Positions 28,017 to 62,078 of a stretch of DNA of 64,000 nucleotides are shown here, in pieces. Within the stretch, counting starts at the first letter, position 1. Each line of letters opens with the position of its first letter. Location of the stretch: NCBI RefSeq assembly GCF_039535095.1, contig NZ_BAAAWN010000001.1:2542001-2606000 (forward strand), in the 5' to 3' direction. The translations under genes were made by a program, and so were the position numbers. This stretch comes from Arthrobacter ramosus. Lineage in GTDB: Bacteria > Actinomycetota > Actinomycetes > Actinomycetales > Micrococcaceae. The notes beneath the pieces are model-generated. The model was not told the DNA's origin and made no database searches. It worked only from the letters and a program-made list of their open reading frames with translations.

Positions 28017-28038
28017 GTTGTTCTCCTCGGTCCTTCTC

Positions 28039-42841: not shown

Positions 42842-42897
42842 GATTTGCGTCCTCTCTGAATGTGTTGGATGTCCGTATGACATCTATGTGGCTTCGG

Positions 42898-44128: not shown

Positions 44129-44908
44129 TCAGTAGCCCTTGCCTGCGGTCCAGCCGCCGTCGGCATTGATGATCGTTCCATTGATGAAGCGGGCCGCGGG
44201 CGTACAGAGGAAGACGACTGCGGCTGCCACGTCCTCCGGTTGTCCCCAGCTTCCGGTCGGTGTTCCCGCGATGATCGCCGCAGATTCGGGTCCGGTGCGC
44301 AGGTATTCGGCGTTAATCGGTGTTTCGACAATCCCCGGCGCGACGCCGTTGCAGCGGATGCCGCGTCCCCCCAATTCGACGGCGATCGACTTCGTGAGCA
44401 TCACGAGGCCCGCTTTGGATGCGTTGTAGGCCGAGCGGTTCTTGAAGGCGAGGTCGGCCGCCACGGAGGTGACGTTCACGATGGAGCCGCCGCGACCGCT
44501 GCTCAGCATGGCGCGCACCGCTCCCTGGGCTATGAGAAACGGGGCGGTCAGGTTGAGGTCGAGCGTGCGCTGCCAATCGTCGAGGGGGTAGTCCTCGAAG
44601 GAGTGCACTCCCCTGCGTCCGGCGTTGTTGACGACGATGTCAAGCGAGCCGAAGTCCGCTGCGACCCTGTCGGGCACCCCTGCGGCCTGCTTCAGGTCGC
44701 CCAGATCGACGGCGTAGGGGCGTACATCCTGGCTTTCCCCGCCAAGGCTCGCGACGGCGTCTGCCAACAGCTCGTCTTGGATGTCAATGAGTGCAACACG
44801 CGCCCCTTGTGCGCGCAGACCGGCCGCAATGCTCAAGCCGATGCCTTGGGCTGCGCCGGTGACCAGCGCGACGGTGCCTTCGAGGGCAGGATGAGGCGCC
44901 ATCGTCAT
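44129..44908 (-). CDS. SDR family oxidoreductase
   Basis: 259 residues. TGAAQGIG (17-24), NNAG, VTSVAA and YNASK are classical SDR motifs. ATGA overlap with the ferredoxin reductase stop; it precedes the P450 by 22 bp. Co-encoded with the P450, it is the best candidate for oxidising the P450's alcohol product to a ketone. Confidence 0.9.
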   Translation of the reverse strand: MTMAPHPALEGTVALVTGAAQGIGLSIAAGLRAQGARVALIDIQDELLADAVASLGGESQDVRPYAVDLGDLKQAAGVPDRVAADFGSLDIVVNNAGRRGVHSFEDYPLDDWQRTLDLNLTAPFLIAQGAVRAMLSSGRGGSIVNVTSVAADLAFKNRSAYNASKAGLVMLTKSIAVELGGRGIRCNGVAPGIVETPINAEYLRTGPESAAIIAGTPTGSWGQPEDVAAAVVFLCTPAARFINGTIINADGGWTAGKGY

Positions 44909-46122: not shown

Positions 46123-47214
46123 TCAGACCTCAACCCTTTTCTCGGAACCCTGCCCGGCGTGGTGGCCAGACGGGGAGCCCTGCGTGCCGCGTGTTTGCGT
46201 TGACGCCAGGAGGGAACCGCTGCCTTCGCTTTTCCCCTTTGACTTCTCTTTTTTCGGCCGTGACAGCTTCTTGCGGCGGACGACAGCCAGGCCAACGGCC
46301 GCGATCAGTGCAACACCGTTGAACATCGAGGCGACCCACTGCGCTCCCGAAACCAGCTGCAGTCCCTGCACGCCTGTGGCCAGCACGAAGATGGCGAGCA
46401 CTGTGCCCCAGACGTTGTGCCGGCCCGGTACCAGCTGGGTGGATCCGAGGAACACAGCCGCGAAGGCGGGGAGCAACAGGGAAGGCCCGAAACCGAGGGA
46501 GGGACCGGTCAGCGATACGAAAAGCACGCCGGCGAACCCGCAAATCGTCCCTGAGATGGTCAGCGACAGAAATGACCACTTGTCGACCTGTACACCCGAC
46601 AGCCGGGCTGCCTCACGGTCGAAGCCGGTGGCACGCATGTAGCGTCCCGCCGGTGTGCGCTCAAGGAGCCACCAGACGATGAGAGCGATGATGATCATGT
46701 AGAAGAACACCATTTGGAACCCGAAGATGCTCGTTTGGGTCAGACCAGTAAAGAATTCATTGTCAATCGGCAGCGGCTCCCGGTTGTTGGTCACGATCAC
46801 CAGGAATGCCTCCAGAATCGATCCCATTGCCAAGGTGGCAATGAACGAATCGATCTTCAGCTTCACCACTATCAAACCGTTCAGCATGCCGATCACGGTT
46901 CCAACCGCAGTCCCGAGGAGGATTGCCCCCACTGGGTCGAGCAGACCATTTGTCTGCACAATGACGGCAAGGATGCCGGAGAAGTTCGCAATGGCCCCGA
47001 TGGACAGATCGAACTGGCCGGTGACCATTGGCACTAGCAATGCCAGGGCCACGATGGCCGCGATTGCCTCCGTGGACGCCAGGAGATGGACCGTGTTCAT
47101 GGTCGGGAACGTTCGAGGCGCCATGAACGAGAACAGCACGATGAACAGACCCCAAAGGTAGAGGCCGCTGAACCTGTCCAAGCCGGGCGAGAACTTTCTT
47201 CCTGTCACTTTCAT
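46123..47214 (-). CDS. ribose-type ABC transporter permease
   Basis: 363 residues. RbsC-family helices and motifs (MVTGQFDLSIGAIANFSG, GTAVGTVIGMLNGLIVVKLK, ATGFDREAARLSGVQVD). An unusual ~35-residue Lys/Ser-rich C-terminal tail follows the last helix. ATGA overlap with the ATPase gene. Confidence 0.92.
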   Translation of the reverse strand: MKVTGRKFSPGLDRFSGLYLWGLFIVLFSFMAPRTFPTMNTVHLLASTEAIAAIVALALLVPMVTGQFDLSIGAIANFSGILAVIVQTNGLLDPVGAILLGTAVGTVIGMLNGLIVVKLKIDSFIATLAMGSILEAFLVIVTNNREPLPIDNEFFTGLTQTSIFGFQMVFFYMIIIALIVWWLLERTPAGRYMRATGFDREAARLSGVQVDKWSFLSLTISGTICGFAGVLFVSLTGPSLGFGPSLLLPAFAAVFLGSTQLVPGRHNVWGTVLAIFVLATGVQGLQLVSGAQWVASMFNGVALIAAVGLAVVRRKKLSRPKKEKSKGKSEGSGSLLASTQTRGTQGSPSGHHAGQGSEKRVEV

Positions 47215-48761
47215 GAGGTTTCAACCTTTGATTCATTGGAACGGAGAACTCTGCGATCGAGTTCGGCCACCGAAATGTCACTTCCGGTGAGCTGTTCGGT
47301 GATCACCCCTGACCGGATAATGAGGACGCGATCGCACACGGTGGCAATCTCTTCTGCGTCCGTGGAACTGATGACAACGGCGGCGCCGGCATCGCTGGCA
47401 TCCATGATGTAACGGTGCAGTTGGGCCTTGGCACCAACATCCACCCCCTGGGTCGGTTCGTCCAGGAGCATGACACGCGGCGAAATGCGCATCCACTTGC
47501 CGATCAGGATCTTCTGCTGGTTACCACCGCTGAAGCTTGCCAGCGGAGCCTTCACGGCTCCCGCGGGCCGGACCGCGAGCCGGTCCATCCACTGACTGGA
47601 TTCGGTGAGTTCGGCGCTGATCCGCAGATGACCGCCCCGGAAAAACTTCTTCATTGCCGGCAGCGTCAGGTTCTCGCACGCCGTCATTTCCATCAGGCCA
47701 CCGCCGCGCTTGCGATCGGGAGCGAGATAGGCGACTCCCTCCTTGATGGCCGACGCCGGCCGGCCGGCAAGCTGGGCCCCGTCGACGCGAACATCACCGC
47801 CCTCGCGTTCCCTCGCCCCGAAGATGGTGCCAAGAAGCGATTCCCTCCCCGAGCCGGTCAAACCGTAAATGCCGACGATCTCGCCCGGCCGCACTTCGAA
47901 ATCCACCCCTTCGAGTGCGTCTCCTTGCAGCCCCGATACCGTCAGGACCGGCCGGCTGTTTCCCGAAGGAACGTCAGTGATGTCGCGCCGTACCGGCTCG
48001 ACAGCTCCGCCGACAAGTGCGTGGATGATGTCCTCACGTGGTGCATCCACGACGTCCCTGGTGAGCACAATGTGACCGTCGCGCAGCACGCTCACCCGAT
48101 CGGCGAGACGGAAGACCTCATCGAGATGGTGGGTCACATAAAGGATTGCCACACCTTGTGAGGCCGCCGTCTTCACCATCTCATGCAGGTGAGCCACCTC
48201 GCGTGCCGGGAGGGTGGCCGTGGGTTCATCGAGAATGAGGACGGTCACCTTTCCGCCGTGCCGGCTCAGTGCGCGAGCGACGGCGACCCCCGTGCGTTGA
48301 GCGGCAGAGAGCTCCGCAACCCGCTTGGCCGGACTGATGTCCAGCCCGACCGCTTCAAGCGCCTGGGCCGCTTCCCGACGCGCCTGCGCACGACGAATCG
48401 TGCCGAACCTCGTCGGAAAGCCCGCCCCGATGGCCAGATTGTCAAGCACAGTGCTTTCAGCGACGAGCCCGAGGTCCTGGTGGACGATTCGGAGCCCGAG
48501 TTCGTGCGCACTCTTCGTGGAGCCGAAGTCCAGGGGCTTTCCGGCGATCAGGACTTCCCCGCGACCCGGGTCCGGGGCATGATAGCCACCGAGGACCTTG
48601 ATGAGCGTCGATTTTCCCGACCCGTTCTGGCCCAGCAGCGCGTGGATCTCACCGGGAACCAGGTTCAGTTCGAGGGGGTGGAGCACCGTCCTTGGTCCGA
48701 AAGTCTTCGACACATGCGCGATCGAGATCGCAGGAGGCATCACCGCTGTTGGCGCTGTCAT
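47211..48761 (-). CDS. ribose-type ABC transporter ATP-binding protein (two ATPase domains)
   Basis: 516 residues, RbsA/MglA type. First domain: Walker A GQNGSGKS, degenerate signature LSAAQRTG, Walker B VLILDEPTATL. Second: GLTGSGRES, FSGGNQQK, VMLLDEPTQGVD. GAAGGGAC precedes the ATG. Imports a substrate with the permease and the lipoprotein at 48820. CUT2-family systems are best known for sugars, but relatives carry other solutes. Confidence 0.93.
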   Translation of the reverse strand: MTAPTAVMPPAISIAHVSKTFGPRTVLHPLELNLVPGEIHALLGQNGSGKSTLIKVLGGYHAPDPGRGEVLIAGKPLDFGSTKSAHELGLRIVHQDLGLVAESTVLDNLAIGAGFPTRFGTIRRAQARREAAQALEAVGLDISPAKRVAELSAAQRTGVAVARALSRHGGKVTVLILDEPTATLPAREVAHLHEMVKTAASQGVAILYVTHHLDEVFRLADRVSVLRDGHIVLTRDVVDAPREDIIHALVGGAVEPVRRDITDVPSGNSRPVLTVSGLQGDALEGVDFEVRPGEIVGIYGLTGSGRESLLGTIFGAREREGGDVRVDGAQLAGRPASAIKEGVAYLAPDRKRGGGLMEMTACENLTLPAMKKFFRGGHLRISAELTESSQWMDRLAVRPAGAVKAPLASFSGGNQQKILIGKWMRISPRVMLLDEPTQGVDVGAKAQLHRYIMDASDAGAAVVISSTDAEEIATVCDRVLIIRSGVITEQLTGSDISVAELDRRVLRSNESKVETS

Positions 48762-48819: not shown

Positions 48820-50001
48820 CTACTTGACGCCCCACAGTTTGAGGTATTGCTCCAGGGCGCCCGTGGGGTAGTTGTAGGGAACGCTGGTGCCTTTGACGCT
48901 TTCTTGGGTGACTAGCTGGAACGGCAGCAAGGAGACCTTGTCGAGACCGTCGCTGTGGGTGATGGCGCGCAGGGCGGCATCAACCTGGGAGTACCCGGCA
49001 ACGGGGTAGGAAAAGGCGGTCCAGGCGACCTGCGATCCATCCATAAGTCCGCCCTGGGCGCCCTGATCCATTGAACGGCCCCCGATCTTGACCTGTCCGT
49101 TCAGACCCGCGGCTTTGAGCGCCGCCGTGATCCCCTTGGAGAACTGTGCGTTGTCGAAGAAGACGTAGTTAATGTCGGGCTTGGAACGGAGGGTGTTCAC
49201 GACCGTCGGGACGACTTGGTTTGCGCTTACCTGGGTCAGCGTGGACTCCAGAATCTGCACGCCGCACGCTGCGCACTTGTCAGAGACCTCCTGCTTGAAG
49301 GACTTCACGAAGGCCTCAAGGGAAGGGATGGCGGGGATGTTCTCGAACAGCACCTGGCCGACGCCCTTGGAGTCAGCTATAAACCAGTCGGCCAGCGTCT
49401 TCCCTGCGGCTGCTTCTGCGTCACAGCCAAGCGCACCCTGGATGATGCTGCCAACGGGCTGGAGCGGGCACACCGAGCCGACGATAAGGGGGATGCCGGC
49501 GTCCTTGTACTGCTGGATGACGTCTTCACCATACGCGGAGACGGGATCGCCGCTAATCAGGACGGCGTTGGGGCCCTTCGCGAGGGCGGTCAGCAACGCG
49601 GAGCGGAGGGTGGCGGGGTTCGAGCCCTGGTAGGCGAGCTCTTCGAAGGTCCAGCCGATGCCATCGACGGCCTTGTGTGCGGCGTCAACCATAAGAGTCG
49701 TCGCCGGAAGGCCGCTATTGAGGTAGATGATTTTCCCGTGCGCGGGCAAAGTTCCCTTGAGCGGAATACTCTGGCTCAGGGTCGTGGGCGCCGCGACATG
49801 TGCGTCGGCGACCGCCTTGACTGCCGCAAGTTCGGCGGTGGTGGCGCCCTTTGCATCCGGCGCGCCGCCACCCGTTGCACATCCAGCCATAAGCAGTGCC
49901 GACACGGTAACCGCAATGCCCAACTTGAGCTTGCGGACGGGGCTGTTTCTACCCCGGGTGTCGGCTGGGAAGCCGGATGCACGTTTCAGTTCTTTGTCCA
50001 T
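48820..50001 (-). CDS. ribose-type ABC substrate-binding lipoprotein
   Basis: 393 residues. Basic start, hydrophobic segment, lipobox LLMAGC with Cys41, then an Ala/Thr-rich linker and a type 1 periplasmic-binding fold (GPNAVLISGDPVSAYGEDVI, INYVFFDNAQFSKGI, KIGGRSMDQGAQGG). Cysteines in GSVCPLQP, ALGCDAEA and DKCAACGV are unusual for the class and may form disulfides. ATG 50001 with GGAG seven bases upstream is chosen over 50013. First gene of the P450 operon, which ties the imported compound to the pathway. Confidence 0.9.
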   Translation of the reverse strand: MDKELKRASGFPADTRGRNSPVRKLKLGIAVTVSALLMAGCATGGGAPDAKGATTAELAAVKAVADAHVAAPTTLSQSIPLKGTLPAHGKIIYLNSGLPATTLMVDAAHKAVDGIGWTFEELAYQGSNPATLRSALLTALAKGPNAVLISGDPVSAYGEDVIQQYKDAGIPLIVGSVCPLQPVGSIIQGALGCDAEAAAGKTLADWFIADSKGVGQVLFENIPAIPSLEAFVKSFKQEVSDKCAACGVQILESTLTQVSANQVVPTVVNTLRSKPDINYVFFDNAQFSKGITAALKAAGLNGQVKIGGRSMDQGAQGGLMDGSQVAWTAFSYPVAGYSQVDAALRAITHSDGLDKVSLLPFQLVTQESVKGTSVPYNYPTGALEQYLKLWGVK

Positions 50002-50105
50002 TACGAACTCCATCGTTCGGGCGTCAACAGCGGGGTTGACCCTATGGTTGATTGGGCGTAGCGGTGGCCTCTTGAGACCATCACATTCATACCTACTGTG
50101 ACAAC

Positions 50106-50118
50106 TATACACATGAAT
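50106..50118. promoter_or_regulatory. AT-rich motif upstream of the ABC/P450 operon
   Basis: TATACACATGAAT, about 105 bp before the first gene; similar to 29040-29052, 53046-53058 and 36940-36952. Confidence 0.35.
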
Positions 50119-50383: not shown

Positions 50384-51217
50384 TCAGCGACCGCGAACGT
50401 AGTCATCGACCGGCGTGGTATCCCACGCGCCCGCTCCGCCGGCCCCTCGGACGCTCCAGACCTGGGACGCACCGCCGTCGACGTAGAGGAGCTGTCCCGT
50501 GATATAGCTGGACCGGTCGGAAAGCAGGAATGCCGCGGCATCTGCGATTTCGCCGGGATGGCCCGCGCGACGCAGCGGCACGGTGCCACCACGGCGGAGA
50601 AGATTCTCTTGGATGGCATCGATGACAACGCCGTCAAAGGCCTGCTGTGTGGCGATGAGCCCCGGGGCGATCCCGTTAACCCGCACGCCCATCGGTGCCC
50701 CGTACATCGCCGAACCGCGCAGCAGCGACAGCACTGCGCCCTTGGACGCTTGGTAAGGAATGATGTCATGGCTACCGTGCGTCCCGCTGACGGAACATGT
50801 AGCGAGAACCGTTCCGCCGCCTCCCTGCGACTCGAACTGGCGAAGTGCCGCGCGAATACCGAGGAAGGTGCTGATGACATTCACCTCCATCACGTGACGG
50901 AAATCGTCCAGGCTGAGGTCGACGAGGCGCGCGGGACTGCCGACGATGCCCACGTTCAGGTGATGCATGTCGATGCGGTCGAAGGCCTCCAGACCCGCGG
51001 CGATGTAGTGCTCGACGCCTGCCTCAGTGGAGACATCCGCTTGCACGCTGATTGCCCGGCTGCCATACCGCCCTGCGACCGCGGCGGCGTCGTCGCCTTC
51101 ACGGTCCACGACGACGACCCGCGCACCCGCCTCGACCAGGCGGTCGACCACTGCCTCACCGAGTCCGCGGCCGGCACCGGTGACTACCGCTACACGGCTT
51201 TGGAAGTTATCCGTCAT
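50384..51217 (-). CDS. SDR family oxidoreductase with atypical NNAG region
   Basis: 277 residues. TGAGRGLG near the N-terminus, YQASK active site and a Ser in CSVSGT. The usual NNAG is replaced by HLNVGI and the C-terminus carries a ~25-residue Gly/Ala/Asp-rich extension (VRGAGGAGAWDTTP). ATG 51217 is used; a GTG at 51229 is possible. 15 bp after the CitE-like gene. Confidence 0.85.
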   Translation of the reverse strand: MTDNFQSRVAVVTGAGRGLGEAVVDRLVEAGARVVVVDREGDDAAAVAGRYGSRAISVQADVSTEAGVEHYIAAGLEAFDRIDMHHLNVGIVGSPARLVDLSLDDFRHVMEVNVISTFLGIRAALRQFESQGGGGTVLATCSVSGTHGSHDIIPYQASKGAVLSLLRGSAMYGAPMGVRVNGIAPGLIATQQAFDGVVIDAIQENLLRRGGTVPLRRAGHPGEIADAAAFLLSDRSSYITGQLLYVDGGASQVWSVRGAGGAGAWDTTPVDDYVRGR

Positions 51218-51231
51218 GCTTCGCGCCACGC

Positions 51232-52134
51232 TTATGCGCGTTCGAGGACGAGCCTGGCAACCCTGTAATCGGGCAACGTGATGACCCGGCCGTTGAGCAC
51301 TGCAGCAGGCTCACCTCTTGCCGCGGTCTCTTCGTACGCGTCGCACACCTGGCGCGCCCGATCCACCTCGGCGGCCGAGGGGCGCATGACTTCATTGATG
51401 ATGGGCAGGTGGGCGGGCGAGACCGCGATGCAGGCGGTGAAGCCGAGATCGGACCACGTTTGGATAAATGCGCGGACCTTCTCGAGGTCCTTGTACTCGG
51501 GGATCAGCGAGCCTCCGGTTGCCCACAGCCCGTAGGCGGCAGCTGCGGCGGCGATCTTCGCGCGTGCGTACCCGCTGGTCAGCGACGAGAGCATGCCGTC
51601 GGCGTCGAAGGGCCGTGAGCCGATGTCGGCGGCGAGGTCGACGTATCCGAAGTGCAGGCCGACGACGGCCGGGTGCGCCGCGATGCGGTCGAGCTCAATA
51701 AGCGCGCGGGCGGTTTCGATCATCACATGAAGTGGGTGAACCCTGCCGGCTCCACGCATGATCGCAACAACCTCGTCGAGCTCCTCGACCGTTTCGACCT
51801 TCGGGTAGGAGATGACGATATCCGCGTCGACGGCGGCGAGTGCCTCCAGGTCGGCCCGTCCCCAGGGCGAGCCGATGTTGTTGCTACGGACAATGATGCG
51901 GCGCTCGCCGAAGTAGTCGATGTCTGCGAGCACTTCGATGACCCGTTCGCGTACCCGCTCCTTGTTTTCGGGGGTGGCAGAGTCTTCGAGGTCGAGCATG
52001 ATTCCGTCGGCCGCGACCTCCGGAACCTTGGACCAATACTTCTCGTTGAGCACCGGGACCTCGATGAGGCTGATCATGCTCGCATATTCTTGGCGCGGTG
52101 TGCGTGCGGTCAGGTCTGTGGAGGTTGTACTCAT
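51232..52134 (-). CDS. HpcH/HpaI aldolase / CitE-like CoA-ester lyase (1)
   Basis: 300 residues. CitE-type beta-barrel: LDLEDSA (48-52 region), IVRSNN (Arg), MIETARAL with Glu140, and FGYVDLAAD with Asp166 as Mg2+ ligands. Family members cleave citryl-, malyl- or citramalyl-CoA type esters, or condense acyl-CoA with a ketoacid. ATGA overlap with hydrolase B; a longer in-frame reading to 52479 would cover that gene and is rejected. Confidence 0.88.
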   Translation of the reverse strand: MSTTSTDLTARTPRQEYASMISLIEVPVLNEKYWSKVPEVAADGIMLDLEDSATPENKERVRERVIEVLADIDYFGERRIIVRSNNIGSPWGRADLEALAAVDADIVISYPKVETVEELDEVVAIMRGAGRVHPLHVMIETARALIELDRIAAHPAVVGLHFGYVDLAADIGSRPFDADGMLSSLTSGYARAKIAAAAAAYGLWATGGSLIPEYKDLEKVRAFIQTWSDLGFTACIAVSPAHLPIINEVMRPSAAEVDRARQVCDAYEETAARGEPAAVLNGRVITLPDYRVARLVLERA

Positions 52135-52982
52135 GGTTGGTCGCCTTCCGCGAAGAAGTCCAGGAGGGAGTCGGTGAATTGTTTGGGCTGTTCGCGGGGG
52201 ATGTAATGGCCGGTCTCGAACCATTCGACCCGCACGTCGGGCATGACCTGCTGAAGACGGTCGACGATGGGCTGGTCCAGGACGTTGCTGGTGCGCCCGA
52301 TCATGTACAGGGTCGGCATGGCCGCCTTCGCCGACATCTCCCACAGGTACTCGACGTCGGGCAGGCTCACCGAGCCGGTGATCCACTGCAGGTCCGGGTC
52401 GGCCTTGGGCACCAGCTTGCCTGCCCAGTTCCGGCGCACCTGGTACTGCACGTGCAGGTCGATGAACTCCTCGACCCACTCCGGGTGCTGCGCCACGTAG
52501 AACTCGCGCACCTCGTGCTCGTCACGGAAGCCGCGCAGGTTCGTGTTCCGCTGGATGAAGTCCCGCATGAACCGCGCACCCTCCACGCTGGTCGCCGGCC
52601 CCGCGTCCGATAACGCCATCCGCCGCACCTGCCCGGGGTTCTCCCCCGCGATCGCGATCGAGACGCGCACCCCGTTGGAGTGCCCGACAAGGTAATAGGG
52701 TCCGATGCCCATCTGCCCGAGCAGACCGGTGACATCGCCGGCGAACGCCCGCACCGCGTAGCCCTGCGGGGACCAGCTGCTCTCCCCGTGACCGCGCAGG
52801 TCCGGGGCAATGACGTGGTACTTCTCGGCAAGACGGCGCGCGATCGGATCCCAGGTGTGGGCGGTCACGTTCAAACCGTGCACCATCACCAGCGGCTGGT
52901 TGCCGCGCTTGCCCCACTCCAGGTAATGGATGTCCAGGCCGTTGACCCTGGCCCGGCCTTCTTGATACTCGTGCGCAGTCAC
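52131..52982 (-). CDS. alpha/beta hydrolase, copy B
   Basis: 283 residues, the same protein as copy A apart from two substitutions: MVHGLN oxyanion region, GHSNG nucleophile elbow, FETGHYIPRE with catalytic His. GTG start with AGAGGAG. Here it sits in a coherent operon: oxidoreductase and crotonase upstream, CitE-like lyase coupled downstream. This is probably the original setting. Confidence 0.9.
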   Translation of the reverse strand: MTAHEYQEGRARVNGLDIHYLEWGKRGNQPLVMVHGLNVTAHTWDPIARRLAEKYHVIAPDLRGHGESSWSPQGYAVRAFAGDVTGLLGQMGIGPYYLVGHSNGVRVSIAIAGENPGQVRRMALSDAGPATSVEGARFMRDFIQRNTNLRGFRDEHEVREFYVAQHPEWVEEFIDLHVQYQVRRNWAGKLVPKADPDLQWITGSVSLPDVEYLWEMSAKAAMPTLYMIGRTSNVLDQPIVDRLQQVMPDVRVEWFETGHYIPREQPKQFTDSLLDFFAEGDQP

Positions 52983-53076: not shown

Positions 53077-54180
53077 TCAAGCCACACCCTGCCAACACCC
53101 CGAAGCGGCAGCACGCCGGATGACATCAAGCAGCTCGTGCAACCGCACCGCATCGTCAAAGTCGGGGACGTCACCGTCTGCGGTCCCGGCCGCTATCGCC
53201 CGGTACATCCGCCGCACGCTGGCAGCGGGCCCGGCCAGCGGCTCGCCGTCAGCGCAGGGCGGTTCCTCGGGGGCCGGCAGGACCGACCGCTCCCCCGAAC
53301 TGCACGTCTCGACCAGGCTCAACCGTGCCATCTGTATCTGGCCGTCGGGGCTATCCGGCATTATCTCCAGCGTGCCCTCCGAGCCATAGACCGTCATCAA
53401 GGGCATCCCGGTCGCATGCACACCCAGAACAAACAGTCCCGACAATGTCGCCCCGCCTGCGAGCACTCCTTCGATGGCCACCTGGTCGGCCGCGGTCTTG
53501 GTTATCCAACGATTCTCGCCCTCGATCGCCACCTTCGGCGTGGCCACGCCAACCTTCGCCGATAGCCCGGCGAGCCTCCCGACCGCGAACTGCACGGCAT
53601 CAAGGGTGTGCGCGGCACGCACGGTCAGCGCTGACAGCCCGTTTCGCTCATCGGCAACCCATTCCTTGCCGCGTGCCAGCACCGGCGCACCATGACCCAT
53701 GCCGGCTGACAAAACATGCACGGCCAGCACCCGGCCGATCCGCCCCCCGTCGACCAACTCGCGAAGTAGCCGAACTGCGGGTTGCTGCCGCGCCTGAAGA
53801 CCGATGATATGGCGGACGCCGGCCAGCACTGCGTGATCCCGCAGGATCTTGGCCTGCTGGGTATTCACCCCGAGAGGCCACTCGCAGTAAACGTCCTTCC
53901 GGGCTGCCGCGGCGGCCGTGACGGACTCAAAGTGCTCTGTGACTTTCACCGCGACCGTAACGAGGTCAACGTCGGTATCAGCGGCGAGAGCGGTGGCACT
54001 TGTATGGGCGCGTCGTGCACCAAATCGTTCGGCCGAGGCGTCCGCAGTAGCTCGTCGCGTTGTTGACACCGCGCGAAGCGCCACTCCCGGTGTCGCCAGC
54101 ACGGCTGGAATGTGCGATTCCAGGGCCCATCCGCCGCTGATGCTGGCACCGACAATTCCGACACCGAGGTCGCCAGTCAC
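53077..54180 (-). CDS. Gfo/Idh/MocA-type oxidoreductase
   Basis: 367 residues. N-terminal Rossmann domain (GIVGASISGGWALE, VTVAVKVTEHFESV), then CEWPLG in place of the common EKP motif, and the C-terminal beta-sheet domain (LFVLGVHATG, VYGSEGTLEI). The change at EKP, which normally carries the catalytic Lys, means the usual dehydrogenase mechanism may not hold. ATGA overlap with the crotonase upstream; its last codons are included in the duplicated unit. Confidence 0.85.
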   Translation of the reverse strand: MTGDLGVGIVGASISGGWALESHIPAVLATPGVALRAVSTTRRATADASAERFGARRAHTSATALAADTDVDLVTVAVKVTEHFESVTAAAAARKDVYCEWPLGVNTQQAKILRDHAVLAGVRHIIGLQARQQPAVRLLRELVDGGRIGRVLAVHVLSAGMGHGAPVLARGKEWVADERNGLSALTVRAAHTLDAVQFAVGRLAGLSAKVGVATPKVAIEGENRWITKTAADQVAIEGVLAGGATLSGLFVLGVHATGMPLMTVYGSEGTLEIMPDSPDGQIQMARLSLVETCSSGERSVLPAPEEPPCADGEPLAGPAASVRRMYRAIAAGTADGDVPDFDDAVRLHELLDVIRRAAASGCWQGVA

Positions 54181-54953
54181 GGACGCGGCGTTTCGTGACC
54201 CGACAGCTGGCCAGCCTTCAGCCCACCCATATACCAGTGCCCGCTGCCCTCAACACCAAGACCATGACTGAGGCCCTCGTTGAAATTGCGCCGGAACCCG
54301 ATGGACGCCGCGGCCTTGGCGTAGCGCAGCATCGCCACGTCTCGGCGCGCCAGATCCCTGGCAATCTCCCAGGCGCGGTCCATGAGCTTCTCTGCGGGCA
54401 GTACCTCGTTAATGAACCCGATCTGCTTTCCCTCCTCGGCGCCGATCGCGGACCCGGTGAGCAGCCAGTACTTGACGCGGGTGGGCCCGAGCAGTTCACC
54501 CCACACCAGGTTCACCCCGTCGCCCGGGATAGTGTCACGCAGGGGAAAGTGTGCCTTGTCGGCAAACTCGGCGTGCTCGGCAGCAAGGACGATGTCGCCC
54601 ATCACGGGGATCTCGGAATGGATGAGGGCCGGGCCGTTGACGGCCCCGATGATCGGGATTTCGACGTCGTTCAGGTTCCGCAACATCCGGCGCCCCTCCC
54701 ACCAGATGTAGTCCCAGCTGTGGCGGGTAAAACTCGTCACGTCCAGCTCAGTGCAGTACGCATCGCCAGTGCCCGTCAGGATGAGCACCTTCGTGGCATG
54801 GTTCTTGCCGACCCAATCGAAAGCCTCGGTGAGCTCAGTGTGGGCCTGTGCATCCCAGACGAAGGATCCGCCGTTTGTGTGAAACCGCATTTCGGTGACG
54901 CCATTGTCGTGAGTGATGCTGATTCGTTCCCAGTGCGGGTGTTCGAAGGTCAT
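54177..54953 (-). CDS. crotonase-family beta-diketone hydrolase, 6-oxocamphor-hydrolase-like
   Basis: 258 residues. Recalled 6-oxocamphor hydrolase (CamK/OCH) of Rhodococcus shares long stretches: LILTGTG, the VxGPxxxHxEIPVM type segment, DIVLAAE, HFP, PGDG and LLTG. The three residues that define OCH catalysis, His122, His145 and Asp154, correspond to His112 (LIHSEIPV), His135 (KAHFPL) and Asp145 (IPGDGV), with the same 23-residue spacing between the histidines. Ordinary enoyl-CoA hydratase glutamates are not at their usual places. OCH splits a cyclic beta-diketone by a retro-Claisen reaction without CoA. GGAAGGG precedes the ATG. This is the main clue to the chemistry of the island. Confidence 0.82.
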   Translation of the reverse strand: MTFEHPHWERISITHDNGVTEMRFHTNGGSFVWDAQAHTELTEAFDWVGKNHATKVLILTGTGDAYCTELDVTSFTRHSWDYIWWEGRRMLRNLNDVEIPIIGAVNGPALIHSEIPVMGDIVLAAEHAEFADKAHFPLRDTIPGDGVNLVWGELLGPTRVKYWLLTGSAIGAEEGKQIGFINEVLPAEKLMDRAWEIARDLARRDVAMLRYAKAAASIGFRRNFNEGLSHGLGVEGSGHWYMGGLKAGQLSGHETPRP

Positions 54954-55243: not shown

Positions 55244-56608
55244 ATGACCATGCCCCACTCTCTCACCCGTACCGGTCTGTCGGGCCAAGTCGCAGAGGCG
55301 GTCCTCGACGTCGCGGACAGCCCCCTCGACACCTCCCTGGCCACCGCCGTCAGTGACCGGCTTTTGCACGGTATCGGGGTGGCGCTGACCGGGACCGAGT
55401 TCGAGGCCTTTGCTGCGGGTTTACGAGCCGTCTCCTCCGAATCGGGCGCCTCCACGGTATTGGGTCGGCGCAACCGGCTCTCCCCCGCGGCAGCGGCCTT
55501 CGTCAACGCCATTGCCGCACACTCGTGCTTGCAGGAAGATTGCGGTCCCGGCGGTTACGTAGAGGGAAGCCACCCAGGCACCTACATCATTCCGGCTGCC
55601 TTGGCGGCCGTTGATGCGGCTGGCGTAAGCGGTGAGCGCTTCGCTCGCGGCGTGATCGCAGGCTACGAGGCCGTCAGTATCCTCGGGGAGATCGTTCCGG
55701 GCGGCTTGAGCGCCCGTAAGTACCGTCCCAGCGGGATCATGGGTCCATTCGGTGCAGCGACGGCCGCGGCGTACATTTTCGGCGCAGACGCCAATCAGCT
55801 TGCCACGGCTTTGAGCATCGCCAGCAACTCCGCGGCCGGCAGCAATCAGGGCTTTGTTAGCGGCACCATTGAGCCCCTTGCCCATGCCGGTCTTGGTGCG
55901 AGAAACGGCTTGCTTGCCGCTAAGCTCGCGATGGCCGGCGCCGCGGCAAGTCCGAACGCGCTGGAGGGTCCATACGGCTTCTTTGCAGTGTATGCGGGTG
56001 AGCAGCCAACCGTCGCGGGTCTGGGCCTCCGCTCCGAGGAGCCGGCCATCACGCGTCTGGGCAGCAAGAAGTTTGCCGTCTGCTTGCAGAATCAGGAAAC
56101 CCTTGAACTGGCCGGCGAATTGGCCCCGGCGCTAAGCGGTGCGACGATCCGCGAGTTGGTGCTTTCCCGCCCTAACACCCCGGCCAACGGCACCGGTAGC
56201 GCTGGGGTAGGCGCAGAAGGACCCTTCGAAACCATGCTGCAACGTCAGATGTCCGCACGTTTCACGCTCGCCGCGGCGCTGCTTGGCCGACCGGTTACCG
56301 ATCCCCGCTACTTCAACGAGGCGGGCGCGGATGCCCAGGCGGCCGACCTCGCAGCCTTGGTGAGCCTGCGTCAATACGAAGCGGACGCTGTCGATATCGT
56401 TGCCCGGCTCGACGACGGGCGGGAGCTGCGAATCGCGGGCCGGCGCCCCGAAATCCTCCAGCCAAGCTCCGTGCGCATTGATGAACTCTTCCTGGAACGA
56501 GCCGGTAGGGTTCTCAACGCAGAGTTGGCCGAACGCATACTGTGCGACATCCGCTCCATCTCTTCAGTCCCAGACGCCGCAGCTATCACAAACGCGTTGC
56601 GCGGCTGA
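55244..56608 (+). CDS. MmgE/PrpD family protein
   Basis: 454 residues. Family motifs: ATVLGRRNRLSPAAAAFVNA type N-terminal region, GYEAVSILGE, GIMGPFGAATAAAYIFG, SIASNSAAGSNQGF and GPYGFF. The family includes 2-methylcitrate dehydratase and cis-aconitate decarboxylase; the specific reaction cannot be read from sequence here. AGGAG precedes the ATG. It runs divergently from the crotonase unit and converges on the SDR-CaiB-MaoC-CitE operon. Confidence 0.88.
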   Translation: MTMPHSLTRTGLSGQVAEAVLDVADSPLDTSLATAVSDRLLHGIGVALTGTEFEAFAAGLRAVSSESGASTVLGRRNRLSPAAAAFVNAIAAHSCLQEDCGPGGYVEGSHPGTYIIPAALAAVDAAGVSGERFARGVIAGYEAVSILGEIVPGGLSARKYRPSGIMGPFGAATAAAYIFGADANQLATALSIASNSAAGSNQGFVSGTIEPLAHAGLGARNGLLAAKLAMAGAAASPNALEGPYGFFAVYAGEQPTVAGLGLRSEEPAITRLGSKKFAVCLQNQETLELAGELAPALSGATIRELVLSRPNTPANGTGSAGVGAEGPFETMLQRQMSARFTLAAALLGRPVTDPRYFNEAGADAQAADLAALVSLRQYEADAVDIVARLDDGRELRIAGRRPEILQPSSVRIDELFLERAGRVLNAELAERILCDIRSISSVPDAAAITNALRG

Positions 56609-56943: not shown

Positions 56944-57813
56944 CTACGCGGACTCGATTTGCGCGGCCAACATGATCGGCATCGTCGCAGTCGTGCCGCC
57001 GTCGACCGGGATCGTGTGCCCCGTCACATAGCGCGACTCGTCGCTGGCCAGATAGAGAACCGCGAAAGCGACGTCCCAGCCTGTGCCCTCCGTGCCGAGC
57101 ATGGTCGCCTTCGCGCGACGGGAGCGCATGCGGTCCGTGCCGCCTCCATCCCAGCCTTTGAACCCCAGGCCCATGGGAATCGCGACATGGCCCGGTGCGA
57201 CAGTGTTGACCCGGATCGCGCTTTGGCCGTACTCGAATGCCTGCGCCTTGGCCATGGCAATCAGACCGCCCTTCGCCGCCGAGTAGCCGATGCCGCCCCC
57301 GGCTCGAAAGCCGGCGATTGACGAAATGTGGATGATGGAGCCGCCGCCGGCCGCCTTCATGTGCGGAAGCACGGCGTCCGACATGAGCTTGGGGGCCTTC
57401 AGGTTGAGGGCGATGATGGCATCCCACATCGACTCGAGGTTCTCCTGCTCACCGGGCGCAATGGCTGCATTGTTGACCAGGATGTCGATTCCGCCGAACT
57501 CGTCGAGGGCACGGGCCGCCACGGCTTCGCAGTTCGCCTTGACGGTGATGTCTGCAGTATGGACGTAGGCGCGCCCACCGATTCGCTCGACGGCTTCGAG
57601 CGTGTGTCGTGCACGGTCTTCCGAGACGTCCAATACAACGACGTTCGCCCCCTGCGATGCCAACAACAGAGCGATGTCCGACCCGGTGCCGCCCATGGTT
57701 CCGGCCGAGCCCGCTCCAGTGACGATCGCTGTCCGTCCCTCTAGTCGTCGGTCCCCCGGCAATTCGGGAATCTCGAGGCTATCGCTGTTCGGTGTCTGGC
57801 CTGTGGTGTACAT
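56944..57813 (-). CDS. SDR family oxidoreductase
   Basis: 289 residues. The nucleotide loop is long and modified (TGAGSAGTMGGTGSDIA), followed by NNAAI, SSIAG and YSAAK. AAAGGAG precedes the ATG. Last intact gene of the 63-57 kb operon. It could oxidise a hydroxyacyl or cyclic alcohol intermediate. Confidence 0.88.
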   Translation of the reverse strand: MYTTGQTPNSDSLEIPELPGDRRLEGRTAIVTGAGSAGTMGGTGSDIALLLASQGANVVVLDVSEDRARHTLEAVERIGGRAYVHTADITVKANCEAVAARALDEFGGIDILVNNAAIAPGEQENLESMWDAIIALNLKAPKLMSDAVLPHMKAAGGGSIIHISSIAGFRAGGGIGYSAAKGGLIAMAKAQAFEYGQSAIRVNTVAPGHVAIPMGLGFKGWDGGGTDRMRSRRAKATMLGTEGTGWDVAFAVLYLASDESRYVTGHTIPVDGGTTATMPIMLAAQIESA

Positions 57814-57908: not shown

Positions 57909-59111
57909 TTAGATGGTGCCGGCAGCGCGTAGTTCTGCGATGCCGTCCGGGCTGATGCCGAGGTCCTCGGCGTAGAAACTGTCGTTGTGCTCACCCAGCG
58001 AGGGGGCGGTCCGCCACACCTTGCCCGTGTGGTTGGTGAGGCGTGGGAAAACATTCTGCATGCGCACGGGACCGAGGTCGGGATCCTCGATCTCAATCAC
58101 GTTCTCGCGTTCCCGGTACGTTTCGTCTTTGAGGATGTCCTCGACCGTGTAGATCGGGGAGGCGACGACTTCGAGACGGTCCATCTCGGCAACGCACTCA
58201 TCGAGGGTGTGCGCCTTGATCCACTGGCGCACCAGCTCATCGAGCCGCTCACGGTGCTGTACCTGCATGGCCGGTGTGGCGTAGTCCTCCAGGGGTTCGC
58301 CCACCAAGGTGGCCACGTTCTGCACCGATCGGGGCGTGCCCGAGGTGACCGTAATCCAGCGACCGTCCTTTGTCATGTAGGTGTTGATGACGGCGGCGGG
58401 GGCGGCCGCGAGCTGGTTGCCGGCCCGGGTCGGGTTCTCGCCCAGCTGGTCGTAGAAGATGACCTGCCATTCGACCAGGCGGAAAAGTCCGTCGTAGAGC
58501 GCGAGATCGATCCACTCACCCTGGAAGTCCGGGTCATTGTTTTTGCGGTAGGCGGCCGCCAGAATCGCGTACGCGCCCATCAACCCGGTGACCGAGTCGC
58601 CGTGGGAGAAGCCTGTGTGCACTGGTGGTCCGTCGGGGAATCCGGTGATGTTGACTACCCCGCTCATCGCCTCGCCCACTTTGCCAAAGCCGGGCGAGTT
58701 CCGCTTGGAAGACGAGTTTCCGAAGCCAGTGACCTGCAGCATGATCAACTTGGGGTTGATCTTGTTAAGCGAGGTGAAGTCAAGCTCCCATTTCTCCAGG
58801 GTTTCCACGCGGAAGTTGCAGATCACGACGTCCGCCCATACTGCAAGTTTGCGTGCGAGGTCGCGGCCTTCCTCGGTGCGCAGGTTGAGGGTGACGGAGC
58901 GCTTGTTGCGGGCCGCCACCTTCCACCACAAATGCACTCCGTCTTTGGCTGGTCCGGCGTTGCGCTGCGGGTCCCCGCGCCCCGGATCCTCGACGTGCAC
59001 GATGTCCGCGCCCAGGTCGGCGAGAAGTGTTCCGGCGAGGGGGCCGGCGATGACGTGGGCGAACTCTACGACTTTCAGGCCGCTGAGCGCTCGCTTATCA
59101 ATGTGAGACAT
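57909..59111 (-). CDS. CaiB/BaiF (class III) CoA-transferase
   Basis: 400 residues. GLKVVEFAHVIAGPLAGTLL opening and ADIVHVEDPGRGDPQR are family signatures; the catalytic Asp is Asp172 in SHGDSVTGLMGA. It moves CoA from a donor such as succinyl-CoA to a carboxylic acid. The ATG at 59111 with AAGGAG upstream is chosen; a longer frame to 59372 would enter the MaoC gene. Beside MaoC and CitE genes it recalls succinyl-CoA:itaconate CoA-transferase of the itaconate pathway. Confidence 0.9.
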   Translation of the reverse strand: MSHIDKRALSGLKVVEFAHVIAGPLAGTLLADLGADIVHVEDPGRGDPQRNAGPAKDGVHLWWKVAARNKRSVTLNLRTEEGRDLARKLAVWADVVICNFRVETLEKWELDFTSLNKINPKLIMLQVTGFGNSSSKRNSPGFGKVGEAMSGVVNITGFPDGPPVHTGFSHGDSVTGLMGAYAILAAAYRKNNDPDFQGEWIDLALYDGLFRLVEWQVIFYDQLGENPTRAGNQLAAAPAAVINTYMTKDGRWITVTSGTPRSVQNVATLVGEPLEDYATPAMQVQHRERLDELVRQWIKAHTLDECVAEMDRLEVVASPIYTVEDILKDETYRERENVIEIEDPDLGPVRMQNVFPRLTNHTGKVWRTAPSLGEHNDSFYAEDLGISPDGIAELRAAGTI

Positions 59112-59173: not shown

Positions 59174-59704
59174 CTAGACGTTCCATTCCGAGGTCGGTTC
59201 GGGAAACTGTTCGACCGCCTGGGGGGCATGTTTGCGATACATCATGAACGTGCGCTGGTATTCGACGACGGTCTGGCCGTGCTGGTTGATGCCCCGGGTG
59301 CGGATCCCGATGATGCCCTGATTCGGGCGCGACTTCGATTCGCGTTTGGAGGTCACTTCGCTTTCGGCCCACAGGGTGTCACCGGCGAAGACAGGGTTGG
59401 GCATGGAGATCTTGTCCCAGGCGAGGTTCGCCATGGCGTTCTCGCTCGTGTCTGACACGGAGAGCCCCACCACGATCGACAGGGTCAGGCACGAGTTGAC
59501 GAGCGGGGCCTTGAACTCCGTCTTCGCGGCGAACTCACTGTTGAAATGCACCTGGTTGGTGTTCATGGTGAGCAGGGTGAACCACGTGTTGTCTGTTTGC
59601 TCGATGGTGCGCCCCAGACGGCTCCGGTAGACGTCTCCCACCTCCATGTCTTCGAAGAAGCGGCCGCGCCACTGTTTGGGTGCCATGACGGTGTCGGTGC
59701 TCAT
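59174..59704 (-). CDS. MaoC-like hydratase, itaconyl/mesaconyl-CoA hydratase type
   Basis: 176 residues, hot-dog fold. TDNTWFTLLTMNTNQVHFN carries the hydratase Asp38/His53 region; KRESKSRPNQGIIGIRTRG and NPVFAGDTL resemble the Ich/Mch subfamily that hydrates itaconyl-CoA or mesaconyl-CoA. AAGGAG lies within the end of the upstream CitE gene, and start and stop overlap (ATGA). Confidence 0.85.
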   Translation of the reverse strand: MSTDTVMAPKQWRGRFFEDMEVGDVYRSRLGRTIEQTDNTWFTLLTMNTNQVHFNSEFAAKTEFKAPLVNSCLTLSIVVGLSVSDTSENAMANLAWDKISMPNPVFAGDTLWAESEVTSKRESKSRPNQGIIGIRTRGINQHGQTVVEYQRTFMMYRKHAPQAVEQFPEPTSEWNV

Positions 59705-60552
59705 AGGTTCTCCTTAGTAAGTGGACGGGCGGAGATGCCCGAGATGGTCAGGGTGCGTTGAGCCCTGCGCAGCACTGGTAGGTCGACAAGTTTCGTTCCC
59801 ACCGTCGCGACCCCGTGGCCGTTTATCTGGGCCTGCTCGTAGGCCTCGACAACGGCCAGGGCGTGCACAATGTCATCCTCACCTGGTGTGAAGGCGTCCT
59901 TGACCGGGCCGAGTTGCCGCGGGTGGATGCAGGCTTTCGCGGTGAAACCCAGGCTGCGTGACCGCCCCGAGGCCGCAACAAGGCCGTCGTCGTCGGTGAT
60001 GTCCAGATGCACGACGTCGATTGGTCCCTCGATCCCGGCGGCAGCCGAGGCCATCGCCACCCGCGACCGGGGGTAGAGCAGGTCGAGTTCGTCGGTGCGC
60101 AACTCGCTCCCGACATCGGCCGCAAGATCGGCCGAACCCAGCATGAGGCGTACGACGCGAGGGTCAGCGGCGACACCGGGCACTTCCTCCACACCCTCGG
60201 CAGTCTCCACCAGCCCGATCACGGGCGGGCACGTCAGAGGCAGGAGGCCCAGCATGCGGGGAGTCGCTTTCGGGACCATGATGGCGTCCAGGGCTGCGCC
60301 GCTGAGCACCTCCAGGTCGGAGACTCCCCAGCGCTTGTCGGGCGCGTTGATCCGGACGATCATCGCCGGACCGCCTTCGATGCGGGCGTCCAGAATCTCG
60401 CGGACAAGACGGCGGGCGTTGTCTTTCGCTTGAGGGGCGATCGCGTCTTCGAGGTCAAGAATGACAGCATCGGCGCCGCTCTCAAGCGCCTTGTTCACCT
60501 TGCGCGCGTCGTCGGCCGGGACAAAAAGTAGCGTGCACAGACCCTCTCGCAT
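59701..60552 (-). CDS. CitE-like CoA-ester lyase (2), citramalyl-CoA-lyase type
   Basis: 283 residues. LDLEDAI, IVRINA (Arg67), LVETAEGV (Glu116) and GSADLAAD (Asp142) form the Mg2+/CoA site of the CitE/CitE-like family. Coupled to the MaoC hydratase, the arrangement of CoA-transferase, hydratase and lyase matches Ict-Ich-Ccl for itaconate, which yields acetyl-CoA and pyruvate. A closely related homologue would be expected here with a branched or longer substrate. Confidence 0.88.
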   Translation of the reverse strand: MREGLCTLLFVPADDARKVNKALESGADAVILDLEDAIAPQAKDNARRLVREILDARIEGGPAMIVRINAPDKRWGVSDLEVLSGAALDAIMVPKATPRMLGLLPLTCPPVIGLVETAEGVEEVPGVAADPRVVRLMLGSADLAADVGSELRTDELDLLYPRSRVAMASAAAGIEGPIDVVHLDITDDDGLVAASGRSRSLGFTAKACIHPRQLGPVKDAFTPGEDDIVHALAVVEAYEQAQINGHGVATVGTKLVDLPVLRRAQRTLTISGISARPLTKENL

Positions 60553-60555: not shown

Positions 60556-61038
60556 CTACTCCCCGACCCTTCGAGCTGGACGCTCCGCGCGCGCGGGCCT
60601 TTCCGGGCGGATACGGCGGGGACTGCAATACACTGCGCCGTCGCGGACTTCAATCTGGTAGGCGCCCAGCCTGCCTTTGAGCGCACCGCCCACGCTGGCA
60701 CCCGTTCGCAGGCTGAACTCGTATCCATGCCATGGGCAGGTGACGATCTCGCCTTCTTGTGCGAAGTGATACTCGTTGCGCTCCGACGGCTCCATCGTGC
60801 CTTTGATGGCGCCATCACACATGTTGGCGGCCTGGTGCGGGCACTTCGAACCGATCGCGAAGACCCCGGCGAGGGTGCGCACCACGCACACCTCGCGGCC
60901 GCCGATCTCGACGCTCCGAAACTCATCCAGGACCATGTCGTCGTACTCGCACACATACTCGAAGTCCTCTGTCGAGGGACCGGTGACCGGGTCCGTTCGA
61001 CGCAAGGCGGCGAGTGTGCCGGGCTGGGATTCGCTCAT
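60556..61038 (-). CDS. stand-alone Rieske [2Fe-2S] protein
   Basis: 160 residues. Rieske ligands CPH in GSKCPHQAANMC and CPWHGYEF, with about 35 residues between. No second domain. The C-terminus is Arg/Pro/Ala-rich and may be disordered. Start at 61038 overlaps the stop of amidohydrolase 1 (ATGA). It could be an electron carrier for an unidentified oxygenase or a redox partner of the PDR reductase at 38191. Confidence 0.88.
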   Translation of the reverse strand: MSESQPGTLAALRRTDPVTGPSTEDFEYVCEYDDMVLDEFRSVEIGGREVCVVRTLAGVFAIGSKCPHQAANMCDGAIKGTMEPSERNEYHFAQEGEIVTCPWHGYEFSLRTGASVGGALKGRLGAYQIEVRDGAVYCSPRRIRPERPARAERPARRVGE

Positions 61039-62048
61039 GACGTCACCGCTTCAACGCGGGGAAGCAAAGCGGCACCGTTGGAGAGAATGAGGGCGCCGTC
61101 GTCCGGGCCCAGTTGCTTGATGACGTCCCCGGGAGCATCGCCGTCGAAGGGACTATGCGAGCCAAACACGATGCGGCTCCGGAGTGCGTCGGTCGTGAAG
61201 TGGCGCGCCCAGTCGCCGTCCATGGTTGCTTCTTTCAGGGGCCAGGTGTTCAGCCACACCTGTTCGAGTACATATTTGCTGGGCGCATGTTTCACCCATG
61301 GAACGTCGTATCGGAACGTGCGCCATTCGCGGTCGATCCGCCACAACATCGATGGCAGCCAGCTGAAACCGAAACCTGAGAAGAGGAACCGGACCGCGGG
61401 GAACTTCTCGAGGGTGCCCTCGAAGGCAAGGCTGGTGATGTTGGATTCAGCGAGCTGCGACATGAGCACCTGACGGCTGAGTGCGCTGTAATGGACGCCG
61501 CCGCCAAGCGGCTGGGCGCCGGCGTACAGGCCCTCGACACCGCTGAAATGCACGATGATGGCGAGTCCGGTCTCGGCAGCCGCCTCGTAGATCTGGTCGT
61601 AGTGACTCGCTCCAAGCAGGCCGGCCCCGAGAGGAAGAGCGATGGCACCAAATACGTGCTCGGCAGCGCGGCGCCGGATTTCTGCCGCAGACCACCCTGG
61701 ATCCCCTGGCTGAACCACGATAACCGGTACGTTGTTGCCTGACGACCATTTGTCGCGGGCTAATGAGTTGAAACCGGACAAGAATTCGGTGGCGGCGACT
61801 CCGTCGGCCCACCCGTTCACGGTGAGCGCCTGGTGCGGCATCAGGAGAACCTTGTCCGCCTCGGGCAGTGCGGCGGCAGAGACAGGTTGCTCACCGAACC
61901 TGCTTGACACGCGTATGTGATTGCTCGCCTCGGTCACGGAGCCAAGGAACTCTTTGCGCTCGAAGTGCTTTTGCCAGGACTTGTCCAAGTACGCGAGCAC
62001 GTCGCGATAGTCGGTGACGGCGACGTGCCTGTCGGTGTCGATGATCAT
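61035..62048 (-). CDS. amidohydrolase-2 family protein (1), active site degenerate
   Basis: 337 residues. ACMSD-type TIM barrel with DTDRH near the N-terminus. Where its paralogue has VEWGFSW it has SGFGFSW, and where the paralogue has SDYPH it has SHSPF, so a Glu and the metal-binding Asp are lost. Start at 62048 with AGGAAAG upstream is preferred to an ATG at 62075. It may be an inactive partner subunit of amidohydrolase 2. Confidence 0.82.
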   Translation of the reverse strand: MIIDTDRHVAVTDYRDVLAYLDKSWQKHFERKEFLGSVTEASNHIRVSSRFGEQPVSAAALPEADKVLLMPHQALTVNGWADGVAATEFLSGFNSLARDKWSSGNNVPVIVVQPGDPGWSAAEIRRRAAEHVFGAIALPLGAGLLGASHYDQIYEAAAETGLAIIVHFSGVEGLYAGAQPLGGGVHYSALSRQVLMSQLAESNITSLAFEGTLEKFPAVRFLFSGFGFSWLPSMLWRIDREWRTFRYDVPWVKHAPSKYVLEQVWLNTWPLKEATMDGDWARHFTTDALRSRIVFGSHSPFDGDAPGDVIKQLGPDDGALILSNGAALLPRVEAVTS

Positions 62049-62078
62049 GGTTGACTGTCTTTCCTGCAATGTCATGGC

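Follow-up and report, generated by a model that had tools for sequence, protein, structure and literature searches.

A predicted retro-Claisen beta-diketone hydrolase in a cytochrome P450 gene island of Arthrobacter ramosus

A 64,000-nucleotide stretch of the Arthrobacter ramosus genome (contig NZ_BAAAWN010000001.1, positions 2,542,001 to 2,606,000; hereafter the window, whose own numbering is used below) contains a minus-strand open reading frame (ORF) at 54177-54953 that encodes a 258-residue protein, here called the hydrolase. By every sequence and fold test run, this protein is a member of the coenzyme A (CoA)-independent beta-diketone hydrolase family. It probably acts as a CoA-independent 1,3-diketone hydrolase working with the cytochrome P450 encoded in the same gene run, and its most likely role is to open the ring in an island-encoded breakdown of a ring compound that the P450 would initiate. 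An earlier note on this DNA, made from the sequence alone, had read the gene as a retro-Claisen hydrolase of a cyclic beta-diketone tied to the P450, at exactly these coordinates. Family, residues and fold support the predicted reaction, while the gene run, related islands in two other genomes, matches in contig size and, more weakly, paired subgroups support the tie.

Few enzymes of retro-Claisen ring opening have been characterized (two are in the PDB, by sequence search), and among the matches listed here the source names of the hydrolase's relatives are mostly enoyl-CoA hydratase, a naming that conceals them. Literature searches of titles and abstract starts returned no work on genes acting after 6-oxocamphor hydrolysis and none describing such a gene cluster. 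The island joins a distinct hydrolase subfamily to a P450 and to a CoA-level lower pathway that occurs in different actinobacterial families. Because the subfamily is tied to both the P450 and the lower pathway, the missing steps become testable.

Family membership of the hydrolase

A phmmer search of all PDB sequences places 6-oxocamphor hydrolase (OCH; 1o8u) first, with 208.8 bits over hydrolase residues 7-236, while Anabaena beta-diketone hydrolase (ABDH; 2j5g) scores 200.5 bits and the top CoA hydratase 69.4 bits. Aligned with MAFFT, OCH residues H45, H122, H145, D154 and E244 correspond to H38, H112, H135, D145 and E235 of the hydrolase. OCH W40 and F82 are also retained (W33 and F75), whereas ABDH has F and L there. 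Homologues were compared in 121 rows, made up of the query and the best 120 of 516 matches and divided into 77 near (P0002-P0078) and 44 far rows. Equivalents of H122, H145 and D154 are present in all 121; that of H45 is found in 114 (77/77 near and 37/44 far; of the other seven rows, three show a gap, three E and one Y), and the E244 position holds E or Q in all 77 near rows (56 E, 21 Q) and in 43 of the 44 far rows (38 E, 5 Q).

The grouping with CoA-dependent hydratases that the earlier note named as speaking against its reading does not appear in the tree, where 63 family rows, the hydrolase among them, stand apart (SH-aLRT 99) from six further paralogues with a crotonase fold that this genome encodes. 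This tree holds 69 of the 70 rows supplied (L049 was dropped as too gappy), comes from a quick search with SH-aLRT support only, and includes 18 of the 76 near and 11 of the 44 far homologues, chosen by hand; the program flagged long branches among the paralogues. All three equivalents of H122, H145 and D154 occur together in 62 family rows, the exception being L073 (L at the 122 position), and no paralogue has the full set. Four of the six paralogues match NCBIfam enoyl-CoA-hydratase-type models at E <=1e-40 and two do not. An AlphaFold model of the hydrolase (pLDDT 94.4, pTM 0.92, from the 51-row alignment A1) is consistent with the same placement: Foldseek returns OCH (1o8u) as top match (E 1.5e-27, TM 0.86, rmsd 1.6), with ABDH next. 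OCH and ABDH entries fill ranks 1-12 (E 1.5e-27 to 1.5e-24), and the first CoA crotonase stands at rank 13 (E 2.5e-16). As PDB scores, residues, tree and fold all agree, we assign the hydrolase to this family.

Databases would instead name the protein an ordinary CoA-dependent enoyl-CoA hydratase, and both the source names and a Pfam ECH_1 match of 90 bits fit that name. However, its top NCBIfam match reaches 96.1 bits against a cut-off of 253. Enoyl-CoA hydratases carry a catalytic Glu at the OCH H145 position and a Gly at the H122 position, a pair present in four of the six paralogues, while the hydrolase has His at both. Since active-site residues, PDB matches, phylogeny and Foldseek ranking favor the CoA-independent hydrolases, we reject the CoA-hydratase identity as highly improbable.

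Within the family, the hydrolase falls in a 19-row clade (SH-aLRT 96), OCH in a separate 10-row clade (99), and ABDH in a third of three rows (96) with L012 and L072. The OCH clade includes enzymes of genomes G424, G769 and G861, of a plasmid of Rhodococcus sp. 008, and others, with 57-73% identity to OCH (five measured). The earlier note had described the His-His-Asp set as conserved with the spacing of OCH, which holds for the residues themselves and for the 23-residue His-His spacing, but not for the His-Asp spacing, which is ten residues in the hydrolase and nine in OCH and ABDH. A spacing of ten occurs in 74 of the 77 near and 4 of the 44 far rows, as well as in tree rows L016, L029, L041 and L073, whereas all 10 OCH-clade rows have nine; being found outside the near rows too, it marks the hydrolase's group without being unique to it. 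Judged by its own clade and by this spacing, the hydrolase is neither an OCH orthologue nor a member of the OCH subfamily. In Rhodococcus, camphor is hydroxylated by a P450, oxidized to 6-oxocamphor and cleaved by OCH; given the position of the hydrolase outside the OCH clade, the analogy with camphor is one of reaction type, not of orthology.

Other members of the family have different surroundings. The same genome encodes a second one (G000:C1:1617716-1618414; rows L002 and L068) with 35% identity to the hydrolase, whose neighbors look by eye like short-chain dehydrogenases/reductases (SDRs), a phosphoenolpyruvate mutase, a thiolase and a flavin monooxygenase. L070, L073 and L074, on plasmids of Pseudonocardia, Novosphingobium and Paraburkholderia, adjoin or lie near annotated xanthine-dehydrogenase-type or other molybdopterin-dependent oxidoreductases, perhaps reflecting a different route to the substrate.

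Linkage to the cytochrome P450 and the related islands

The hydrolase gene is the first of 12 co-directional minus-strand genes, the last two of which encode the P450 and a ferredoxin (Table 1). Measured from the called starts, the widest of the eleven gaps between the genes spans 271 bp, and in nine cases neighboring genes overlap or stand less than 60 bp apart. The run probably forms one transcript. A promoter scan around the hydrolase gene start found no promoter; the sequence directly preceding the start is AGAAAGGAAGG. The hydrolase ORF has no internal stop. The plus strand of 54177-54953 is also open, as often happens in GC-rich DNA, and relatives were searched for the minus-strand protein only. 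The P450, ferredoxin, reductase, SDR and alcohol dehydrogenase (ADH) that the earlier note had placed just downstream are all present, but not so close: the P450 gene lies about 10 kb away with nine genes between, in the same direction, and the ADH gene lies further on, past genes for an HtaA-domain protein and an MFS protein.

A second version of the island, with an OCH-family gene and the shared genes in one stretch, is found by reciprocal best hits in G424 (same genus) and G769. Compared with these two, identities are 49-51% for the P450, 55-60% for the reductase, 72-80% for the CaiB-type CoA-transferase, 80 and 44% for the MaoC/RipB-like hydratase, 51 and 47% for C-C lyase A (CitE_A), 70 and 52% for C-C lyase B (CitE_B), 63-65% for the alpha/beta-hydrolase, 76-82% for the acyl-CoA dehydrogenase (ACAD), 44-52% for the CoA-hydrolase family gene and 51-59% for a GntR gene. 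All three islands thus have the CoA-transferase, ACAD, RipB-like hydratase and RipC-like lyase in common, while the ferredoxin has a match (50%) in G769 only and not in G424. The order in G424 is P450, then CitE_A, MaoC, CaiB, alpha/beta-hydrolase and CitE_B, all in one direction, and an SDR gene directly precedes the OCH gene in both genomes. RbsA- and RbsC-like importer genes are likewise shared. The two islands differ from that of the window in their hydrolases, which group with OCH in its clade at 57 and 62.5% identity to OCH, and in their P450s, which are 61% identical to each other.

The linkage extends to further contigs, where equal size was taken to mean the same contig. Rows were the best 120 of 516 hydrolase, 119 of 195 alpha/beta-hydrolase and 120 of 6508 P450 matches. 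Considering only contigs that reach 5 kb, there are 44 near-clade hydrolases, and for 13 of them a contig of identical size carries a listed P450 or alpha/beta-hydrolase (8/44 with the alpha/beta-hydrolase, 7/44 with the P450), against a chance level over 60 size offsets of 0.08 per pairing on average (maxima 1 and 2); two more matches on shorter contigs are little above chance. Far-clade contigs yield 0/12 matches by size among the listed rows. The seven P450s paired with near-clade hydrolases are 55-67% identical to the window P450, and those of G424 and G769 are 49-50% identical to it and 69% identical to each of two further relatives. Most separate clearly; P0326 does not (55% to the window, 52 and 55% to G424 and G769). 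P450 subgroups appear, more weakly, to tend to accompany hydrolase subgroups.

The island is a rare accessory set. Among the matches listed, close relatives of the hydrolase carry the names Saccharopolyspora spinosa, Pseudonocardia xishanensis, Rhodococcus wratislaviensis and Rhodococcoides kyotonense. At E <=1e-30, with the own genome counted, a hydrolase match occurs in 7 of the 396 phylum genomes, 21 of the 394 class genomes and 14 of the 206 genus genomes. Of these 14, four are at >=99% identity (the own genome, G554, G563 and G564, the last three also carrying the P450 at 93-99%), one at 41% and nine at 35-36%. At E <=1e-60, the alpha/beta-hydrolase is found in 2 of 394 class genomes, own genome counted, and only in the own genome among 396 of the order. 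A family search centered on G822 covered 35 genomes and added none. Plasmid searches gave no match for the alpha/beta-hydrolase and, for the P450, at most 45.1% among the best 25 of 334 records, with no copy of the island.

Table 1. Features of the window. The first twelve rows are the gene run, in order from the hydrolase to the ferredoxin.
Feature	Coordinates	Strand	Basis or remark
Predicted OCH/ABDH-family CoA-independent beta-diketone (retro-Claisen) hydrolase, 258 aa; H38, H112, H135, D145, E235	54177..54953	-	PDB phmmer, residues, tree, fold
Gfo/Idh/MocA oxidoreductase; candidate diketone-making dehydrogenase	53077..54180	-	Pfam; NCBIfam matches all below cut-off; 4-bp overlap with hydrolase gene
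Alpha/beta-hydrolase; candidate second ring or lactone hydrolase	52131..52982	-	GHSNG motif (by eye); conserved in all three islands
CitE/HpcH-type C-C lyase B (CitE_B), 300 aa from ATG	51232..52134	-
SDR oxidoreductase	50384..51229	-
Sugar-type (RbsB-like) ATP-binding cassette (ABC) importer substrate-binding protein	48820..50112	-	Called from GTG; true start maybe later
RbsA-like ABC ATPase	47211..48761	-	Sequence; homologues in both other islands, ~31%
RbsC-like ABC permease	46123..47214	-	Sequence; homologues in both other islands, 29-31%
Ferredoxin reductase	44905..46119	-
SDR oxidoreductase	44129..44908	-
Cytochrome P450, 402 aa from ATG	42898..44106	-	Top PDB match 3tyw
Single-cluster ferredoxin	42629..42883	-	14 bp after P450
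ADH	39362-40300
MmgE/PrpD-family protein	55244..56608	+	Divergent from hydrolase, 290 bp between
SDR oxidoreductase	56944..57813	-
CaiB-type CoA-transferase, 400 aa from ATG	57909..59111	-	In both other islands
MaoC/RipB-like (itaconyl-CoA hydratase-like) hydratase	59174..59704	-
CitE/RipC-like (citramalyl-CoA lyase-like) C-C lyase A (CitE_A)	59701..60552	-
Rieske-type ferredoxin	60556..61038	-
Amidohydrolase-2 family protein b	61035..62075	-
Amidohydrolase-2 family protein a, 372 aa from ATG	62079..63197	-
ACAD	36968..38161	+	In both other islands
Acetyl-CoA hydrolase/CoA-transferase family protein	35588..36886	-	In both other islands
Electron-transfer flavoprotein pair FixB/FixA	26231..28109	-	Matched in G424

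Upstream of the divergent MmgE/PrpD gene lies a second run, comprising two amidohydrolase-2 genes, a Rieske ferredoxin, CitE_A, MaoC, CaiB and an SDR. The amidohydrolase-2 pair at 61035-63197, in a tight run with the Rieske ferredoxin, matches no NCBIfam model at 1e-20 and has no counterpart in the islands of G424 and G769. A segment of about 978 bp occurs twice in near-identical form (28123-29100 and 52129-53106). It spans the 852-bp alpha/beta-hydrolase gene, in which the two copies show 11 mismatches, and roughly 120 bp upstream; next to the copy at 28 kb lies FixA. A membrane protein weakly resembling cytochrome b561 (27.5 bits, cut-off 30.1) adjoins FixB and FixA within 25231-28109. All three are conserved in G424 (61, 55 and 53%, respectively), while FixB/FixA have no match in the G769 stretch examined; together they possibly act as a private electron outlet for the ACAD. 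An HtaA-domain protein (42085-42762), of a heme-binding domain family, overlaps the ferredoxin gene after the P450, and the G424 island also has an HtaA-domain gene, beside its b561-like and FixAB genes. Direct repeats at 12190-12369 and 21417-21597, 9.2 kb apart (91 nt at 85%, 85 nt at 78%), include a stretch resembling a tRNA end by eye and might bound an inserted element.

The proposed route and its alternatives

From the computed family, residues, fold, gene run and conserved linkage, we infer the reaction steps, their order and the substrate class. The ABC importer would take up the compound, and the P450 with ferredoxin and reductase would hydroxylate an alicyclic ketone or alcohol. Oxidation of the product to a 1,3-diketone would fall to an SDR or to the Gfo/Idh dehydrogenase, whose gene overlaps that of the hydrolase. 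The hydrolase would then use water to cleave one ring C-C bond (retro-Claisen), leaving a keto acid. In OCH, His145 and Asp154 activate water and His122 binds the carbonyl; by analogy, H135/D145 and H112 may take these roles here. OCH-type cleavage of a bridged diketone results in a ring ketone with an acetic-acid arm, and the conserved lower genes would fit removal of that arm: activation of the keto acid by the CaiB transferase, desaturation by the ACAD, hydration by the RipB-like enzyme to a tertiary alcohol (as from itaconyl-CoA to citramalyl-CoA), and release of acetyl-CoA and a ketone by the RipC-like lyase. The alpha/beta-hydrolase may open a second ring. The substrate class is most likely a monoterpenoid-like cyclic compound; 6-oxocamphor is possible.

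In a fuller version of this scheme, less probable and put forward only tentatively, the island would encode the whole aerobic degradation of a bicyclic monoterpenoid-type ketone and do so without a Baeyer-Villiger step. Here, the P450 and a dehydrogenase would make a bridged 1,3-diketone, which the hydrolase (as a new OCH subfamily) would convert to the ring ketone with its acetic-acid arm. CaiB, ACAD and the RipB- and RipC-like enzymes would remove the arm as acetyl-CoA via a tertiary beta-hydroxyacyl-CoA, which thiolase cannot cleave, giving a second 1,3-diketone in the remaining ring for the alpha/beta-hydrolase to open. The earlier note had found no Baeyer-Villiger monooxygenase gene, and this is borne out within the window for the two types tested: it holds no FMO-like (PF00743) or luciferase-like (PF00296) monooxygenase, the 8 and 13 matches of the genome all lying outside.

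Several observations weigh against the hydrolase acting with this P450 on a terpenoid ring. The catalytic residues alone are not exclusive to the family, since the paralogue L003 has the equivalents of H45, H145, D154 and E244 and misses only that of H122. The MaoC protein reaches 194.5 bits against the RipB/Ich model of NCBIfam (cut-off 340) and CitE_A 177.6 bits against the RipC/Ccl model (cut-off 375), so that these are likenesses and not assignments. A sugar-type importer and a Gfo/Idh enzyme are unexpected for a volatile hydrophobic terpene. The size-based linkage test is indirect, and among 21 other family loci of at least 10 kb only 6 have any P450 match (27-34%) and 15 have none. The P450 is therefore not a general partner of the family, and its tie belongs to islands of this kind. 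Finally, the hydrolases of G424 and G769 are only 39-40% identical to that of the window and the importers about 30%, while the other shared genes are at 44-82%; given this unequal divergence, the islands may act on different substrates, or their hydrolases may have been recruited separately. It points to a common lower pathway fed by a variable upper one, with a substrate that need not be camphor. L003 itself (G000:C1:2906676-2907302) is a PRK07327-type crotonase with Ala at the H122 position, possibly another non-classical crotonase.

The importer and the Gfo/Idh gene raise the prospect that the diketone is monocyclic or derived from a sugar or cyclitol, with the two feeding a polyhydroxylated ring and the P450 acting elsewhere in the route. 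Each of the three islands has RbsA- and RbsC-like genes, and both the window and G769 encode a sugar-type binding protein; moreover, the Gfo/Idh gene overlaps the hydrolase gene by 4 bp and its weak NCBIfam matches are mostly sugar or inositol dehydrogenases. However, no Gfo/Idh match turned up in the stretches of 60 and 55.5 kb examined for G424 and G769, and an SDR precedes the OCH gene there. A 2372-bp contig matched by size to both a hydrolase and an alpha/beta-hydrolase would leave no room for a Gfo/Idh gene between them, a weak argument because short-contig matches are little above chance. We consider such a substrate unlikely, but less so than a functional 6-oxocamphor hydrolase that would serve, as in Rhodococcus NCIMB 9784, to degrade camphor or borneol. 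That reading seems doubtful despite OCH being the nearest solved structure, W40 and F82 being retained (unlike in ABDH), and two islands with the same lower module having OCH-clade enzymes. The clade and the one-residue-longer H-D loop of the hydrolase argue against it, as does the P450, which has no P450cam-named chain among the best 60 of its 141 PDB matches. Furthermore, OCH-clade genes with higher identity to OCH (66-73%) are found in different surroundings; the one on the Rhodococcus sp. 008 plasmid is accompanied by a P450, a ferredoxin and an SDR of its own. We thus prefer a 1,3-diketone hydrolase that would open the ring of a monoterpenoid-like compound after this P450.

Comparison with known systems

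The lower part of the island resembles the RipABC itaconate module in having RipB/Ich- and RipC/Ccl-like proteins and a CoA-transferase, and differs from it in scoring below the NCBIfam cut-offs and in having a CaiB-type transferase and an ACAD. ABDH (PDB 2j5g/2j5s) shares with the hydrolase its fold, catalytic residues, CoA-independent family and a similar score, but falls in a separate clade and has other residues at the OCH W40 and F82 positions. The nearest system is OCH itself (CamK of Rhodococcus sp. NCIMB 9784; PDB 1o8u/1szo). The two enzymes are 46% identical over 229 aligned columns and lie in separate clades, the hydrolase having an extra residue between the His145 and Asp154 equivalents, a Gfo/Idh neighbor and a RipB/RipC-like lower module nearby. 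They are alike in fold, in the equivalents of His45, His122, His145, Asp154, Glu244, Trp40 and Phe82, and in the 23-residue His-His spacing; OCH acts after a P450, as the hydrolase would do here.

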